Below are positions 4,022 through 14,856 of a stretch of 44,725 nucleotides of DNA, one piece after another. The stretch's first letter is position 1; each line of letters starts with the position of its first letter. The stretch is from Pseudobutyrivibrio sp. (GTDB taxonomy: Bacteria; Bacillota; Clostridia; Lachnospirales; Lachnospiraceae). A program made the translations under genes and the position numbers. The notes beneath the pieces are model-generated. The model was given only the letters and a program-made list of their open reading frames with translations, did not search any database and had not been told where the DNA came from. The stretch is taken from the NCBI RefSeq assembly GCF_017471675.1, contig NZ_JAFUSK010000019.1:1-44725 (forward strand). The letters are read 5' to 3'.

Positions 4022-5011
4022 ATGTACAGATTGTTATTCAACATATTAATTTTGATACTTGGATTTATCGCACTTGTTAAGGGTGCAGATTGGTTTGTAC
4101 TGGGAAGCTCGGATGTTGCAAAAAATCTAAAAGTGCCTTCTCTTATCATCGGACTTACAATAGTGGCCTTTGGAACCAGTGCACCTGAGCTTGCAGTAAG
4201 CTTGACAGCAGCTATAGAAGGCGCAAATGAAATATCAGTTAGTAATGTGGTAGGTTCCAATATATTTAATATATTAATTGTTTTGGGAGTATGTTCCACA
4301 ATTAAACCACTGACTGTAGATAAAAAGATACTAAAGCGAGATATGCCAATATCTTTAGTAATCACAGTATTTACCTTATTTGCATGCATCAATTACGCTG
4401 TCCTTGGTAAAATAGATTTTCAAGGCTTTGATGTAAATGAAAATGTGGGCATGGTACATAGATGGATAGGCATAGTGCTTTTACTTGGATTTTCGGCTTA
4501 CATATATTTGCTTGTAAGAGCTGGAAAAAATGGCAATGCTGACGATGAAAACACAGATAGCCTGCCTATGATAAAATGTATCGGACTTATAATAATAGGA
4601 TTAGCACTGATTATTGCCGGAGGAAAATTTGTAGTAGAAAGTGCTAAAGAATTGGCAAGAATGGCAGGAATGACTGAGACACTAATAGGTGTGACCATAG
4701 TAGCCGCTGGTACTTCACTGCCGGAATTAGTTACATCTATTGTTGCAGCCAGAAAAGGAGAAACAGGTCTTGCCATAGGAAATGTGGTTGGCTCAAACAT
4801 CTTTAACCTGCTATTTATCCTAGGCATATCAGGAACAATTAGCCCAATGGCTGTGAACCTTGCAACCATAACTGATTTTGTAATATTTATATTGTGCAGC
4901 ATCCTAACATACATATTCTCAAGAACATCTGAAAAAATCGTTAGATGGGAAGGGTTAACAATGGTGATGCTTTACATAGCTTACGTAGGATATGCAATAT
5001 TAAGGCACTAA
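4022..5011 (+). CDS. Calcium/sodium antiporter, CaCA family (YrbG-like)
   Basis: A membrane protein of about 329 residues and ten helices that exchanges Ca2+ for Na+ across the cell membrane. The two inverted alpha repeats that define the CaCA family are both visible. The first is GTSAPELAVS with GSNIFNILIVLG (about residues 47-90), and the second is GTSLPELVTS with GSNIFNLLFILG (about residues 229-265). The GGAGG site is only one base from the ATG at 4022, which is too close. A TTG at 4031 would have a ten-base gap and give a start of LLFNILILILG, so the true start may be nine bases downstream. A LysR gene follows. Confidence 0.92.
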   Translation: MYRLLFNILILILGFIALVKGADWFVLGSSDVAKNLKVPSLIIGLTIVAFGTSAPELAVSLTAAIEGANEISVSNVVGSNIFNILIVLGVCSTIKPLTVDKKILKRDMPISLVITVFTLFACINYAVLGKIDFQGFDVNENVGMVHRWIGIVLLLGFSAYIYLLVRAGKNGNADDENTDSLPMIKCIGLIIIGLALIIAGGKFVVESAKELARMAGMTETLIGVTIVAAGTSLPELVTSIVAARKGETGLAIGNVVGSNIFNLLFILGISGTISPMAVNLATITDFVIFILCSILTYIFSRTSEKIVRWEGLTMVMLYIAYVGYAILRH

Positions 5012-5086
5012 CAGGATATTTCTTAACTTACTGAATTTATGTTAAAATCGATTTAGGTAAGCGTGTTGATAAATGAGGAAAAGAAT

Positions 5087-5965
5087 ATGCATATAGAAAA
5101 ACTGAAATGCTACATAGATTTATATGAATGTCGAAATTTCACGGAAACTGCAAAGAAGAATTTTATTTCTCAGGCTGCCTTGAGTCAGTTTATAAGCTCC
5201 CTGGAGAAGCAGTTTGGGCTACAGTTTTTTGATAGAAATGTTACGCCCATTCAGCCAACATCGGCGGGGACCACATTCTATGAGGAAAGCAAAATCCTTT
5301 ATCAGCAGTATCTTATAGCAGTAGAGAGGATGGCTCGTGAAAAAGAGGATTCCATGCCACCTCTAAGAATTGCATATTCTTCTCCTGTAGATATACAGAC
5401 CTTAATTACAATCATCCCAACCTTTAAGGAGAAATATCCTGATGTGGAGCTGCAGCTTAACAAGATTAATCTAGGTGAGGCGGCAGATTACATTAATAAG
5501 AGCTTATGTGATGTTGTAGTTTCTTTTTCTACAGAATTTATCGAAGAGGAAAACATCAAATACAAAATATTAAAAGAAGGCGAGTATTTAGCGATTGTTG
5601 GAAAAGGCCATGATTTATTTGATAAAGATGCAATTGCGATCAAGGAGCTTTACCAATATCCGCTTATAATGCTTAGCAAAGAAGTAATTGGTAGCATGTA
5701 CGATAAAATGATAGAGAGAGCTAGAAGTGAGGGGTGCGAGCCGATTATAGAAAAGACTGTAGATAACGTGGAAACAGAGATGTTTTCTATAATTACAGAA
5801 GGCTTCATTGGGTTTTGCCCAGAAAGCCAAAGCCTAGCAGAATATGGAGATGACATCAGGCTAATAGAGCTGGAAGATAGCCCTCATAGATATATCGTGG
5901 CTGCTGGCTATTCAAAAACGAATACTAACAGGACACTGAAGGAATTCTTGAAGTTTATTTCTTAA
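5087..5965 (+). CDS. LysR family transcriptional regulator
   Basis: A 292-residue LysR-type regulator. The N-terminal winged helix-turn-helix is at residues 1-60 (FTETAKKNFISQAALSQFIS is the recognition region), and the effector-binding domain starts near residue 88 with PLRIAYSSPVDIQTL. The ATG at 5087 is preferred because GAGGAAAAG sits just before it; a GTG 24 bases upstream has no site. The oxidoreductase gene lies 143 bp downstream in the same direction and carries an inverted repeat in its promoter, so it is a plausible target. The effector is unknown. Confidence 0.9.
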   Translation: MHIEKLKCYIDLYECRNFTETAKKNFISQAALSQFISSLEKQFGLQFFDRNVTPIQPTSAGTTFYEESKILYQQYLIAVERMAREKEDSMPPLRIAYSSPVDIQTLITIIPTFKEKYPDVELQLNKINLGEAADYINKSLCDVVVSFSTEFIEEENIKYKILKEGEYLAIVGKGHDLFDKDAIAIKELYQYPLIMLSKEVIGSMYDKMIERARSEGCEPIIEKTVDNVETEMFSIITEGFIGFCPESQSLAEYGDDIRLIELEDSPHRYIVAAGYSKTNTNRTLKEFLKFIS

Positions 5966-11894: not shown

Positions 11895-12004
11895 AGATTT
11901 ATGATAACAAAAAATGGGCAAAACACAACAAATATGAAATTCTATTTATAAAAAACAGGGCGTAAAATGACAATTGCTTAGAAATAAAAGTTAGAGGTGT
12001 GGAT

Positions 12005-13381
12005 ATGAGCGCAAAGACAAATGCAAAAAGTGGACAAAGAGATTTTACAAAGGGCAGTCCAGTGAAGCTGATATTGGCTTTCTACTGGCCACTACTGCTT
12101 ACAAGTATGCTGCAGCAGGTCTATAATTTCGTAGACACCTTAATAGTAGGTAAGGGCCTTGGTGATAATGCCCTTGCAGCAGTTGGTAATATGGGCTCAT
12201 TATTCTTTTTGATAGTAGGATTTTCATTTGGATTAGCTAATGGATTCGCCGTGCTTGTAGCCCAAAGCTACGGGGCAAAGAATATCGAGCAGCTTCGTCA
12301 TCGCCTTGCAGCTACAATAGTTTTAGGCTTTATCCTGGCACTTAGTCTGTCTGTTATCAGTGTAGTATTTCTGCCAACATTGCTTGAATTTATGCAGACA
12401 GACACACTTATCATGGGCGATAGTTTGACATACGGTTATATATTATTTGGTGGTTTATCAGTAGGTATCTGTTACAATATCGCGGGCTCAATCCTGAGAG
12501 CATTCGGAGATAGCCAGACACCACTCAGGGCAATCATCGTATCTTCAATTGTTAATTTGGCTTTGGATAGCCTATTTATCCTTGTACTTAAAACAGGTGT
12601 TGAGGGAGCAGCCATTGCAACACTCATTGCCCAGGTGATTTCGGTGTTAATTTGCATTAATCGTCTTAGGGCAATACCAGAAATCAAAATGCAAAGAGAG
12701 CATTTTAAAAATACAATGGGTGTATATTTAGAACTACTGAAGAATGGCCTTCCAATGGCATTTATGAATTCTATCACCGCAGTAGGATGCATGGTTGTTC
12801 AAGGCTTTGTTAATAGCTATGGTGTGGTTTACACAGCAGCTTATGCAGCATGTGGCAAATACAATAATCTGTTTATGAATCCAGCTGCCACAGCAGGAAG
12901 CGCAATGACATCCTACACCAGCCAAAACTACGGCGCAGGTGAATACGGAAGAATCAAGGAAGGCCTTAAGGTGTGCATGGGAATATCTGTTGTATCCTAT
13001 ATCCTTCTAGGCTCACTTATGGTGTTCTTTCCTGCACAGCTGGGCGGATTCCTGCTGTCAGGAAAGGACCAGATAGATTTGGTGTGCCAGTACCTACCTA
13101 GATGCGGCGTGATGATTATAGCTGTAGATGTACTTTTTGTAGTAAGAGCTACTGTACAAGGTATGGGAAAGCCTATGCTTCCAATGATTTCTGGTATTTT
13201 GGAAATGGTTTTACGAACCTTTACTGTATCGTTCTTCATAGGAAGGATTGGCTTCCCTGCCACAGCCTACGCTGAAATAAGCGCTTGGGTTGGAGCGTTG
13301 ATTGTAAATGTGGTAGCACTTTATTTAGCGTTATATCCTTTGTTATATGGGAAAAGGAAAATTGTGATTACTAGATGCTAG
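12005..13381 (+). CDS. MATE family efflux transporter
   Basis: A 458-residue protein with about twelve membrane helices. It begins with the usual MATE N-terminus (FTKGSPVKLILAFYWPLLLTS) followed by QQVYNFVDTLIVGKGLGDNALAAVG, quoted here in two parts, and carries a second pseudo-repeat from about residue 235. MATE proteins expel cationic drugs or metabolites using Na+ or H+. The ATG at 12005 sits seven bases after AGAGG, whereas the upstream GTG at 11999 is too close to it. The divergent AraC gene is a likely regulator. A long gene-free region with a repeat array follows. Confidence 0.92.
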   Translation: MSAKTNAKSGQRDFTKGSPVKLILAFYWPLLLTSMLQQVYNFVDTLIVGKGLGDNALAAVGNMGSLFFLIVGFSFGLANGFAVLVAQSYGAKNIEQLRHRLAATIVLGFILALSLSVISVVFLPTLLEFMQTDTLIMGDSLTYGYILFGGLSVGICYNIAGSILRAFGDSQTPLRAIIVSSIVNLALDSLFILVLKTGVEGAAIATLIAQVISVLICINRLRAIPEIKMQREHFKNTMGVYLELLKNGLPMAFMNSITAVGCMVVQGFVNSYGVVYTAAYAACGKYNNLFMNPAATAGSAMTSYTSQNYGAGEYGRIKEGLKVCMGISVVSYILLGSLMVFFPAQLGGFLLSGKDQIDLVCQYLPRCGVMIIAVDVLFVVRATVQGMGKPMLPMISGILEMVLRTFTVSFFIGRIGFPATAYAEISAWVGALIVNVVALYLALYPLLYGKRKIVITRC

Positions 13382-13468
13382 AGAATTGTTTTGCTCTGTA
13401 TGCACCAGAGAATTGTGGCGTTAAAACATCTGCAACTAGTAAGCTTGCAATAGTATCAGATGGAAAAT

Positions 13469-13763
13469 TACTTCCTAGGATAATTTATTAGAACTAGGTA
13501 GTAGTGTTTTTGAAAGAATTTACTATCTATGGGAGATTCCATGTTGTAGATAGTAGTGATTCCAGAGTAAACTACTACCTAGGGATTATTATCAGCTATA
13601 GATAGTAATGAGCCAGTATGAGATTACTATCTGTAGTTTATTTGATGCTGTAGATAGTAATTAGCCTAAAAAAGTATACTACCTAAGGCTTATTTTTGTT
13701 GTAAGATAGTAGTTAATTGATTTTTCACTACTACCTATGATGAAATTATAATTGTAGATAGTA
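13469..13763. repeat. Array of twelve 9-bp cores, alternating in orientation, exactly 26 bp apart
   Basis: The core TAGATAGTA, or its G variant TAGGTAGTA, lies on the + strand at 13495, 13547, 13599, 13651, 13703 and 13755. The reverse core TACTAYCTA starts at 13469, 13521, 13573, 13625, 13677 and 13729. Every step is exactly 26 bp, so cores are separated by 17-bp spacers that do not resemble each other. Four cores differ from the consensus at one position (13469, 13625 and 13703 at the ends or middle, plus the A/G variant). Each neighbouring pair is an inverted repeat and could form an RNA hairpin. TAG/CTA in every core gives many stop codons, so the DNA is non-coding. Confidence 0.85.
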
Positions 13764-13772
13764 AAGTATGAC

Positions 13773-13935
13773 TTCTTGTGGGCTACTTAAGGAAAAAGCC
13801 CACAAGAACTTGGCTTCGCCAAGCAATATTTTCTTTCAGAAAATATTGGTCTATGTCCGGTTCTTGTTTTTCTGATGAAAAACAAAAACCTATCCCAACT
13901 GCATTGTCAGTCTAAGTGATATTCACACTGAAATG
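13773..13935 (+). other. Five consecutive hairpins, candidate structured RNA or leader
   Basis: Hairpin 1 has a 12-bp perfect stem (13773-13784 with 13797-13808). Hairpin 2 is CTTGGC-TTC-GCCAAG (13809-13823). Hairpin 3 has a 10-bp stem (13824-13833 with 13839-13848). Hairpin 4 has a 9-bp stem (13864-13872 with 13877-13885). Hairpin 5 is bulged (13902-13935). CAAGAAC at 13803-13809 can instead pair with GTTCTTG at 13860-13866, enclosing hairpins 2 and 3 as a three-way junction and excluding hairpin 1. The block ends 27 bp before the next start codon. It could be a 5' leader, an independent small RNA or a palindromic mobile fragment. Confidence 0.6.
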
Positions 13936-13962
13936 GAATAGATTAGTTAGGCAGGAGGAGGA

Positions 13963-14856
13963 ATGAAAGCATACTATCATTTACCAGGCTTGTTTGAGTT
14001 TTACGAATTTTATAAGATGCTGTTACCGCTATTTAGGAATCATCGTGAGTATTTTTACGACTGGTGCGAGATTGGCTCCATCTACGGTGCACCGGCAGAT
14101 TGTCTGTGGGGCGGAGGCCGTGTAGGCTTTGGCGATGAGCAGGCTACTGATGTAATAAGGCTGATGAAGGAATATGATATTTCGGCCAGACTTACCTTTA
14201 GCAATTCATTAATCAGAGAAGAACATTTGACAGATAAAAAATGTAATCGATTGTGTGAGTTGTTTGAAAAGACAGGAGGGGGCAAAAATGGAGTGATAAT
14301 CCATTCTGATCTTCTCTTAGATTATATTAAGAAAAATTATCCCGAGTTCTATTTTGTATCTTCTACTACAAAGGTGCTTACAGATTTTGATGATTTAAAG
14401 GCAGAGCTTGATAGGGATGATTTTGAATATGTTGTACCGGATTTTCGACTGAACAAAAAGCTAGAGCAATTGAATGAACTGCCCCAGTCAAAAAAGGATA
14501 AGGTGGAATTCTTATGTAACGAGTGCTGCTCATTTGGTTGCACTGACAGAAAAGAATGCTATGAGAATGTTAGCAGAAAGAGCCTTGGAGAAGATTGTAA
14601 GGATCACATCTGCACATCCCCACAGGCATCTAGAGGCTATCGATTTTCAGATGCCATGAATAATCCAGGGTTTATCAGTGTGGATGACATACAAAACATC
14701 TATATGCCTGCAGGATTTTCTAATTTCAAAATAGAGGGCAGAAGCTTGGGAAGTGCAATAGTACTGGAATTTATCCTATATTATATGGTAAAGTCAGAGT
14801 ATCAGCTTAGAGTTAGAGAAGAAATCTACTTAGATAGTTCATTAGATTTATTCTAA
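13963..14856 (+). CDS. U32-peptidase-like protein
   Basis: A 297-residue protein that resembles the U32 'collagenase-like' family, a TIM-barrel group now linked mostly to tRNA and ubiquinone hydroxylation or to surface protein processing. The clearest hallmark is FKIEGRSLGSA near residue 255, the same as the LKIEGR of U32 proteins. A Cys cluster follows residue 183 (CNECCSFGCTDRKEC, then C and HIC), consistent with an Fe-S or metal site. The protein is shorter than YhbU/YegQ, and the usual C-terminal domain is missing. The ATG follows AGGAGGAGG very closely. It stands alone between the hairpin block and a terminator. Confidence 0.55.
   Translation: MKAYYHLPGLFEFYEFYKMLLPLFRNHREYFYDWCEIGSIYGAPADCLWGGGRVGFGDEQATDVIRLMKEYDISARLTFSNSLIREEHLTDKKCNRLCELFEKTGGGKNGVIIHSDLLLDYIKKNYPEFYFVSSTTKVLTDFDDLKAELDRDDFEYVVPDFRLNKKLEQLNELPQSKKDKVEFLCNECCSFGCTDRKECYENVSRKSLGEDCKDHICTSPQASRGYRFSDAMNNPGFISVDDIQNIYMPAGFSNFKIEGRSLGSAIVLEFILYYMVKSEYQLRVREEIYLDSSLDLF

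Follow-up and report, generated by a model that had tools for sequence, protein, structure and literature searches.

Phased arrays of alternating short cores in Pseudobutyrivibrio and their association with a PD-(D/E)XK-like protein family

What holds twelve short cores in exact register on alternating strands while the DNA between them changes? The question is raised by positions 13469-13763 of the window, the whole 44,725-nucleotide stretch analyzed here, which comes from a Pseudobutyrivibrio sp. genome. Twelve 9-base cores, minus then plus in strict alternation, were found at a step of 26 bp throughout. An earlier note made from the sequence alone had described this spacing, and it held from 13469 to 13755 with no deviation. 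The consensus proposed there (TAGRTAGTA/TACTAYCTA) was matched exactly by nine of the twelve cores and missed by one base in each of the other three, at 13469 (TACTTCCTA), 13625 (TACTATCTG) and 13703 (AAGATAGTA). Mean likeness within the window array was 89% for the oriented cores, 40% for the inner spacers and 38% for the linker spacers. A de-novo finder was used which sought 8-base words with at most one mismatch on both strands, at a constant same-strand pitch and a consistent offset, with a score of at least 4. The window array scored 10 while Markov shuffles of the same 1500 bp scored 0 in 300 of 300 cases. No further arrays were found by the finder on 1500-bp tiles across the window.

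The core is better written YAGRTAGTAR. Written this way it gives two kinds of spacer, of 19 and 17 bp between 8-base cores, and the array is most naturally divided into inverted pairs, TACTAYCT..AGRTAGTA. The window array (13469..13763) comprises twelve such half-sites, or six inverted pairs, with a pitch of 52 bp. The first unit, TACTTCCTA-N17-TAGGTAGTA, lies at 13469..13503 and has one mismatch in the minus half-site. The last, TACTACCTA-N17-TAGATAGTA, lies at 13729..13763. The analysis drew on 57 stretches around arrays in addition to eight others. A minus core came first and a plus core last in 48 of 60 arrays under a chaining that favors the usual spacings. Inner distances between exact 8-base cores were 27 (209 distinct sequences), 28 (41) and 25 (1). 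Linker distances were 25 (190), 24 (11), 14 (3), 15 (3), 17 (1) and 22 (1); a linker of 15 or 14 is shorter than one of 25 by about one helical turn. Linkers of 24 bp accounted for 19/19 in three arrays of genome G020 and 8/9 in G028, with mostly 25 in the other eleven genomes. The inner spacer often contained an A-rich run.

Nine arrays were located by a pattern search of the own genome (G000), two on contig C7 and one each on C11, C19, C28, C29, C45, C79 (the window) and C86. C88 carried one isolated unit and C1 a decayed array stretch. Arrays or units were present in 13 of 29 Pseudobutyrivibrio genomes, the own genome counted. In a Lachnospiraceae sample of 299 genomes the two positives were the own genome and a genus-mate, and no array was found among the 297 from other genera. 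A scan of named genome contigs gave at least 112 stretches, and among the 80 listed all with two or more units were Pseudobutyrivibrio. The remainder of those listed were single units, two in Pseudobutyrivibrio and the others in scattered taxa, as might be expected by chance. A second core, AGTGGTAA, had dispersed matches in 15 of the 29 genus genomes; among the matches listed, G004, G006 and G008 each had it at more than one separate place. At locus L012 a tyrosine recombinase gene (Pfam Phage_integrase, 4239-5306) adjoins a decayed array (5488-5590) at the contig end.

Cores were conserved and spacers were not, as the earlier note had stated, which supports selection acting on the cores and not on the spacers. 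In homologous arrays 175 of 4808 core positions differed (3.6%) compared to 1977 of 9658 spacer positions (20.5%), counted pairwise within 13 hand-made array groups in which the pairs are not independent; three short or low-identity pairs were dropped from this count, and among those retained the spacer alignment is poor for some. Homologous arrays kept their spacing except where it had shifted by 1-2 bp, by roughly one helical turn or by whole units. The variable spacing, missing repeat or conserved spacers at homologous loci which had been named beforehand as contrary outcomes did not occur, the spacers having diverged.

The window array lies between a MatE-family gene (11999..13381, plus strand) and a gene encoding 297 amino acids (13963..14856, plus strand) for which no Pfam match was found. 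The same two genes are adjacent without an array in G004, G006, G013 and G023. Positions 13458..13767 are 85% identical to the C29 array of the own genome, located upstream of a cbiL-like gene (L009), a name taken from the translation alone. The 33 bp leading up to the ribosome-binding site (13927..13959, plus strand) are 97% identical to the equivalent position before that gene, and homologues of the C29 array adjoin the same gene in G006, G013 and G023. Based on the C29 likeness, the shared leader and the array-less neighbors elsewhere, the window copy looks young and is suggested to have arrived together with part of the cbiL-like gene leader. The intergenic DNA appears to have been replaced rather than simply invaded. 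No clean insertion footprint or target duplication was seen at the window locus in comparison with the array-less loci. A role of the arrays as cobalamin-gene markers was considered and dropped because the array neighbors differ.

A hairpin block of 127 bp (13767..13893) begins where the array ends at 13763, which agrees with the earlier note, and is a separate dispersed element adjoining the array. Copies were identical over 127 bp at L006 and L134, 94-96% identical at L007 and L186, 90% at L162, 83% at L005 and 70% at L215. Six of eight copies lay less than 150 bp from an array of the YAGRTAGTAR family in a sampling that was centred on arrays.

Clustering of the genes flanking arrays yielded one recurrent protein, at nine loci in nine genomes. 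A ComEC-like gene was on the other side of the array at all nine (the L005 copy matched Pfam Competence), and arrays stood on both sides of the recurrent gene at four, L005, L141, L167 and L186, the second array of L186 being decayed. The own-genome gene (G000:C7:39603-40391) encodes 263 amino acids and is located between two arrays of the same core, on a different contig from the window. The C-terminal half of its product, in which VRSKSE, YPDF and WEH occur, resembles PD-(D/E)XK-type profiles. The family matched PDC-S68 and HEAT_CxxC_PDDEXK and, more weakly, families of phage endonucleases and Holliday junction resolvases; on our own reading PDC-S68 belongs to the PD-(D/E)XK superfamily. VRSKSE, PDF and WEH were invariant in 22 aligned paralogues, and the lysine of (D/E)XK was not evident (WEHxG). 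No significant Pfam or NCBIfam match was obtained for the protein and the scanned relatives. A PDB sequence search with P0001 gave no match, and the family profile matched MJ0754 only (E 0.006 and 0.011). Structure models of the whole protein (4 sequences) had a mean pLDDT of 56, in which about the first 100 residues were usable and the nuclease half, with a pLDDT below 50, was not; the nuclease half modeled alone gave 44. The best Foldseek match of the whole-protein model was prefoldin (E 0.16, not significant), and an arm-binding (AP2-like) N-terminus found no support there. Nuclease activity of the array-linked family appears uncertain due to the poorly modeled domain, the lack of a significant PDB match and the lysine that is not evident.

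Matches to the nuclease-like protein were found in 28 of the 29 genus genomes, with 1-11 per genome, fragments counted. In a Lachnospiraceae sample 57 of 150 genomes had a match, near full length in 46 and as fragments or a domain within longer proteins only in the remaining 11. A phylum sample of 299 gave ten matching genomes outside the family; all of their matches were partial, and most covered the nuclease domain within a longer protein. Among 72,556 plasmid records there were three matches, each covering part of the protein. Among 50,697 phage records there was one relative (MT839528.1, 380-1117; 29% identity, 94% covered), in an unannotated 4.2-kb "Bacteriophage sp." record from human faeces.

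Arrays adjoined relatives of the nuclease gene at 75 of 119 loci, mostly with other cores, many of the loci being orthologous between related species. For this count, which leaves 44 loci without arrays, six findings of self-overlapping words were dropped and three others of this type stayed in by manual choice, CTGTGACA (L283, L284), ATGCATGC (L306) and CTTAGCTA (L319). Under the strictest rule, without these, 72 of the 119 loci had arrays and 47 did not. Some of the relatives' arrays were called from just 4-5 repeated copies. The finder scored in none of 238 shuffled flanks, four of which were too short and were counted as 0, and found no arrays in 119 control stretches of genus DNA away from arrays. 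Seven of nine further full-length loci had arrays, with pitches of 52, 53, 64, 74, 64, 75 and 53 bp, or six of nine by a stricter rule which leaves out L356 (self-overlapping word). Other proteins sharing the nuclease domain had arrays at none of nine loci; L352 gave no frame and was outside this count.

Relative to the nuclease gene 69 arrays were 5' and 14 were 3'. The last core was 60-195 bp from the matched protein start at 55 of 59 loci with the array 5' of the gene. Cores varied between nuclease subfamilies, examples being AGGCAGTA, GACACGAA, ACTACGTG, CCCTACTA, TGACTGCA and CTTTGCCC. The eight relatives of the own genome included five with arrays (C7, C15, C18, C24 and C52), one with a weak array (C51), one with an array by self-overlapping word only (C21) and one without (C74). 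The nuclease-linked array at L225 has several words per 75-bp unit, near-palindromic cores TGTNACA stand at 41/33 bp beside the nuclease gene at L283 and L284, and long arrays flank the gene on both sides at L338.

The pitch of the nuclease-linked arrays was close to a multiple of 10.5 bp, in line with the helical phasing proposed in the earlier note. Among 39 core families (score of at least 6) the pitch fell into classes of 50.6-54, 62-64, 72.9-75, 84.6-85.2 and 93.7-96.3 bp, clustering at 52, 63, 74, 85 and 95 bp, or 5 to 9 turns of 10.5 bp; few copies stand behind each of the readings of 94 and 96 bp. The best period was 10.6 bp with a resultant length of 0.90, a strength reached by none of 2000 uniform random sets. 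With a score of at least 4 there were 46 families, with outliers at 61.2, 71.4 and 81.5 and a resultant length of 0.83. One locus per 40%-identity protein cluster gave 10 clusters and again 0.90 at 10.5 bp, and none of 2000 random sets was as strong. Where N-terminal identity was 40-50%, 97% of 35 pairs fell into the same pitch class. Because pitch and protein are inherited together, it is the steps from class to class, each of about one turn, that count as independent evidence.

Gene and array tended to occur together. An orthologue of the nuclease gene (at least 46% identity) and the array were both present in 10 of the 29 genus genomes, the gene alone in three, the array alone in three and neither in 13, an agreement in 23 of 29 (Fisher p 0.003). 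Of the gene-only genomes, G022 and G025 had a variant core beside the gene (AGGCAGTA and ACTACCAC, respectively) and G017 had none. The array-only genomes were G006, G013 and G024, which are drafts scored with the same 46% identity threshold for the nuclease. Core likeness tracked protein likeness over 61 loci (Mantel rho 0.22, 0 of 500 permutations), and the correlation was stronger for the N-terminal half (partial 0.19 vs 0.07). Part of this co-variation is common descent, the nuclease gene being physically linked to its home array. At the ComEC locus the order was array-nuclease-array in G000, G004 and G023, with a single array in G024 (L174, G024:C18, 5009-5307). The G024 array matched the left array of G023 and G004 at 90-100% in six of seven 60-bp windows, and its flanks matched at 92% over 140 bp on the left and 92.5% over 53 aligned bp on the right. 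G024 seems to have lost the nuclease gene; the single array looks like either gene loss by recombination between arrays or an empty site before the arrival of the gene.

The window array is probably, in our judgment, a non-autonomous element bound by a PD-(D/E)XK-like nuclease of the same genome as stacked dimers, with spread driven by the nuclease. The row of half-sites would be occupied on alternating helix faces by a sequence-specific protein, most likely the 263-aa protein of contig C7. Each subunit would read one half-site, probably via the variable N-terminal half, and a dimer would sit on each inverted pair. With a whole-turn pitch, dimers would be able to stack into a filament or wrap along a single face of the DNA, and the A-rich run of the inner spacer may aid bending. 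The home array, usually just 5' of the nuclease gene, may restrain that gene, and its position suits autoregulation. The other arrays are dispersed intergenic copies, which would be kept or spread by recombination which the nuclease starts. RAYT proteins are thought to keep or spread REP elements, and the dispersal of the arrays suits a RAYT-like role. We infer the binding, the dimers and their stacking, the autoregulation, the cleavage and the nuclease-driven spread or mobility from these patterns. The idea of a protein-bound DNA array, already present in the earlier note, is retained here; the partition, condensation or silencing site suggested with it found no specific support.

The same note had offered RNA hairpins formed by half-site pairs as an alternative, and this was rejected because the pairs hardly covary. 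Right halves were reshuffled within each of 32 representative arrays with 227 inner and 201 linker units. The largest excess of complementary pairs over 14 positions tested in inner units was 199 vs 192.4 expected (6.6 of 227), and 8.7 of 201 in linkers. The joint changes of the base after the core, seen in three window pairs, had no general support across the 32 arrays (Watson-Crick pairs 69 vs 73.2 expected), although G.U (84) exceeded A.C (33) there when arrays were oriented by the A-rich inner spacer. At the variable core position A.C (36) was as common as G.U (29) and complementary pairs in inner units were 160 vs 154.6 expected. A transcribed system of tandem hairpins or guide RNAs, TIGR- or CRISPR-like, is highly improbable on this evidence. 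It would account for alternating short repeats with variable spacers beside a nuclease-like gene, and for repeats uniform within a locus and different between loci, both as in TIGR according to the available part of PMC12045711. However, at orthologous places the spacers have diverged through point changes, the pitch tracks the DNA helix and a Nop domain Pfam match was found in none of nine proteins scanned. The window also had no Rfam match at gathering score, and positions 13380-13970 gave two weak, unlikely matches only (E 0.5-0.8). Plain tandem duplication or slippage is scarcely credible and is contradicted as the sole cause. Near-identical units within some arrays, such as on C28, and homologous arrays which differ by a whole unit (a gap of 52, L143 vs L166) speak for it, but spacers diverged five to six times faster than cores with the spacing kept, so the earlier judgment that simple duplication is insufficient stands.

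Three other readings accept a protein on the DNA and differ in its role. The nuclease-like protein could be a domesticated DNA-binding regulator, with the arrays as operators of its own gene and of neighboring genes, spread passively. This is unlikely, although the bias of home arrays to the 5' side of the gene (69 vs 14) suits it, as does an (D/E)XK lysine that is not evident in a family whose catalysis is putative. Against it, of the 53 array flanks that could be classified (16 of 69 could not, and orthologous arrays are counted separately) nine have convergent and just three divergent genes, and the invariance of the expected active-site residues RSKSE, PDF and WEH in 22 paralogues would be odd in a dead enzyme. 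Homing, in which the array would be a target site, the nuclease would cut array-only alleles and the array-flanked gene would be copied in by repair, is quite unlikely. The array-gene-array order at L005, L141, L167 and L186 is what it predicts and the G024 locus, where a single array stands without the nuclease gene at the place matched in G023 and G004, fits as well; gene loss by recombination between flanking arrays predicts the same picture and most solo arrays, which are in unrelated places, are left unexplained. A very unlikely reading makes the arrays chromosome-organizing or partition sites of an unrelated nucleoid protein, with the nuclease link incidental. Such sites would fit the roughly nine phased arrays of the own genome and the several arrays whose location is shared between species, but each nuclease subfamily has its own cores and pitch, several genus genomes without this core carry nucleases beside other arrays and the patchy presence (13/29) is unlike a centromere.

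The reading of nuclease-bound, stacked dimers extends beyond the window. It is an evenly balanced question whether the small, diversified PD-(D/E)XK-like nucleases of Lachnospiraceae, with several paralogues per genome of which many have their own integer-turn array (5 to 9 turns) and dispersed copies of it, form a new class of bacterial genome system, in which a helically phased filament would maintain or spread the arrays. The analysis ties an odd intergenic repeat to a widespread, unnamed nuclease-like family and offers a testable role for both. The quantized pitch is a genomic signature of helix geometry acting on repeat spacing which can be read without experiment. If the binding is true, each paralogue would be naturally matched with its array as DNA-binding protein and operator, with several such pairs per cell. 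The genus would then also be a case of many coexisting repeat-maintaining systems per genome, which would allow the persistence of intragenomic elements to be tested.

Several known systems share parts of this arrangement. A CRISPR array has near-identical direct repeats, acquired spacers and cas genes, whereas here the cores are alternating and inverted and the spacers drift at orthologous places. The C-terminal part of PDC-S68, a candidate defense family of PADLOC, matches the nuclease domain of four proteins (best E 1.5e-23 to 8.6e-29), but PDC-S68 profiles have about 1200-1270 positions, and most array-linked proteins have 250-290 aa and their own N-terminal half. TIGR arrays, as described in the available part of PMC12045711, have alternating 8-12-nt repeats, variable spacers, an adjacent protein gene and locus-specific repeats, and the arrays here resemble TIGR-Tas in all of these. 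They differ from the TIGR-Tas of that text in spacer length (about 9 nt, compared to mostly 17-20 bp here and 6-7 in some linkers), in two cores that are reverse complements, in arrays also dispersed without a gene, in a pitch that varies in DNA-turn steps without clear RNA covariation and in the absence of a Nop domain Pfam match in P0001 and the scanned relatives. The Odn nuclease, with DNA-binding and nuclease parts, targets phage-satellite iterons (PMC8263062, available part). Both have semi-palindromic sites in a row and a two-domain protein to read them, a reading that is putative here; unlike plasmid iterons and Odn, in so far as that part covers them, the present arrays are chromosomal and in many copies, and the nuclease is of a different type. 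No replication gene was found among the scanned array-flanking proteins.

The closest likeness in genome organization is to REP/RAYT. The available part of PMC2817692 describes dispersed intergenic short elements in alternation and a protein gene flanked by cognate repeats, with RAYT subfamilies which each have their own repeat and repeats which track the gene. Alternating inverted repeats dispersed in intergenic DNA were found here too, and the gene is flanked by cognate repeats (on both sides at 4/9 loci, on at least one side at 75/119). Unlike REP/BIME-RAYT, the protein is PD-(D/E)XK-like and not an IS200/IS605-like tyrosine transposase, and the palindrome shows no sign of hairpin selection, with no clear half-site covariation. 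The pitch is locked to whole turns here, whereas inter-REP lengths vary in the Stenotrophomonas clusters covered by that part of PMC2817692. A limited search by title and abstract, with little reach into subscription papers and preprints, found no nuclease-linked arrays in Lachnospiraceae. Within that search the system was rated as possibly new in kind while working like REP/RAYT in its genome organization, because the protein and hairpin features of REP/RAYT were not found and the protein, spacer length and helix quantization set it apart from TIGR. On our own reading, a putative sequence-specific nuclease with a phased array has a REP/RAYT-like organization built from other parts. If true, it would be a double-stranded-DNA counterpart to REP/RAYT, with several lineages within one genome.
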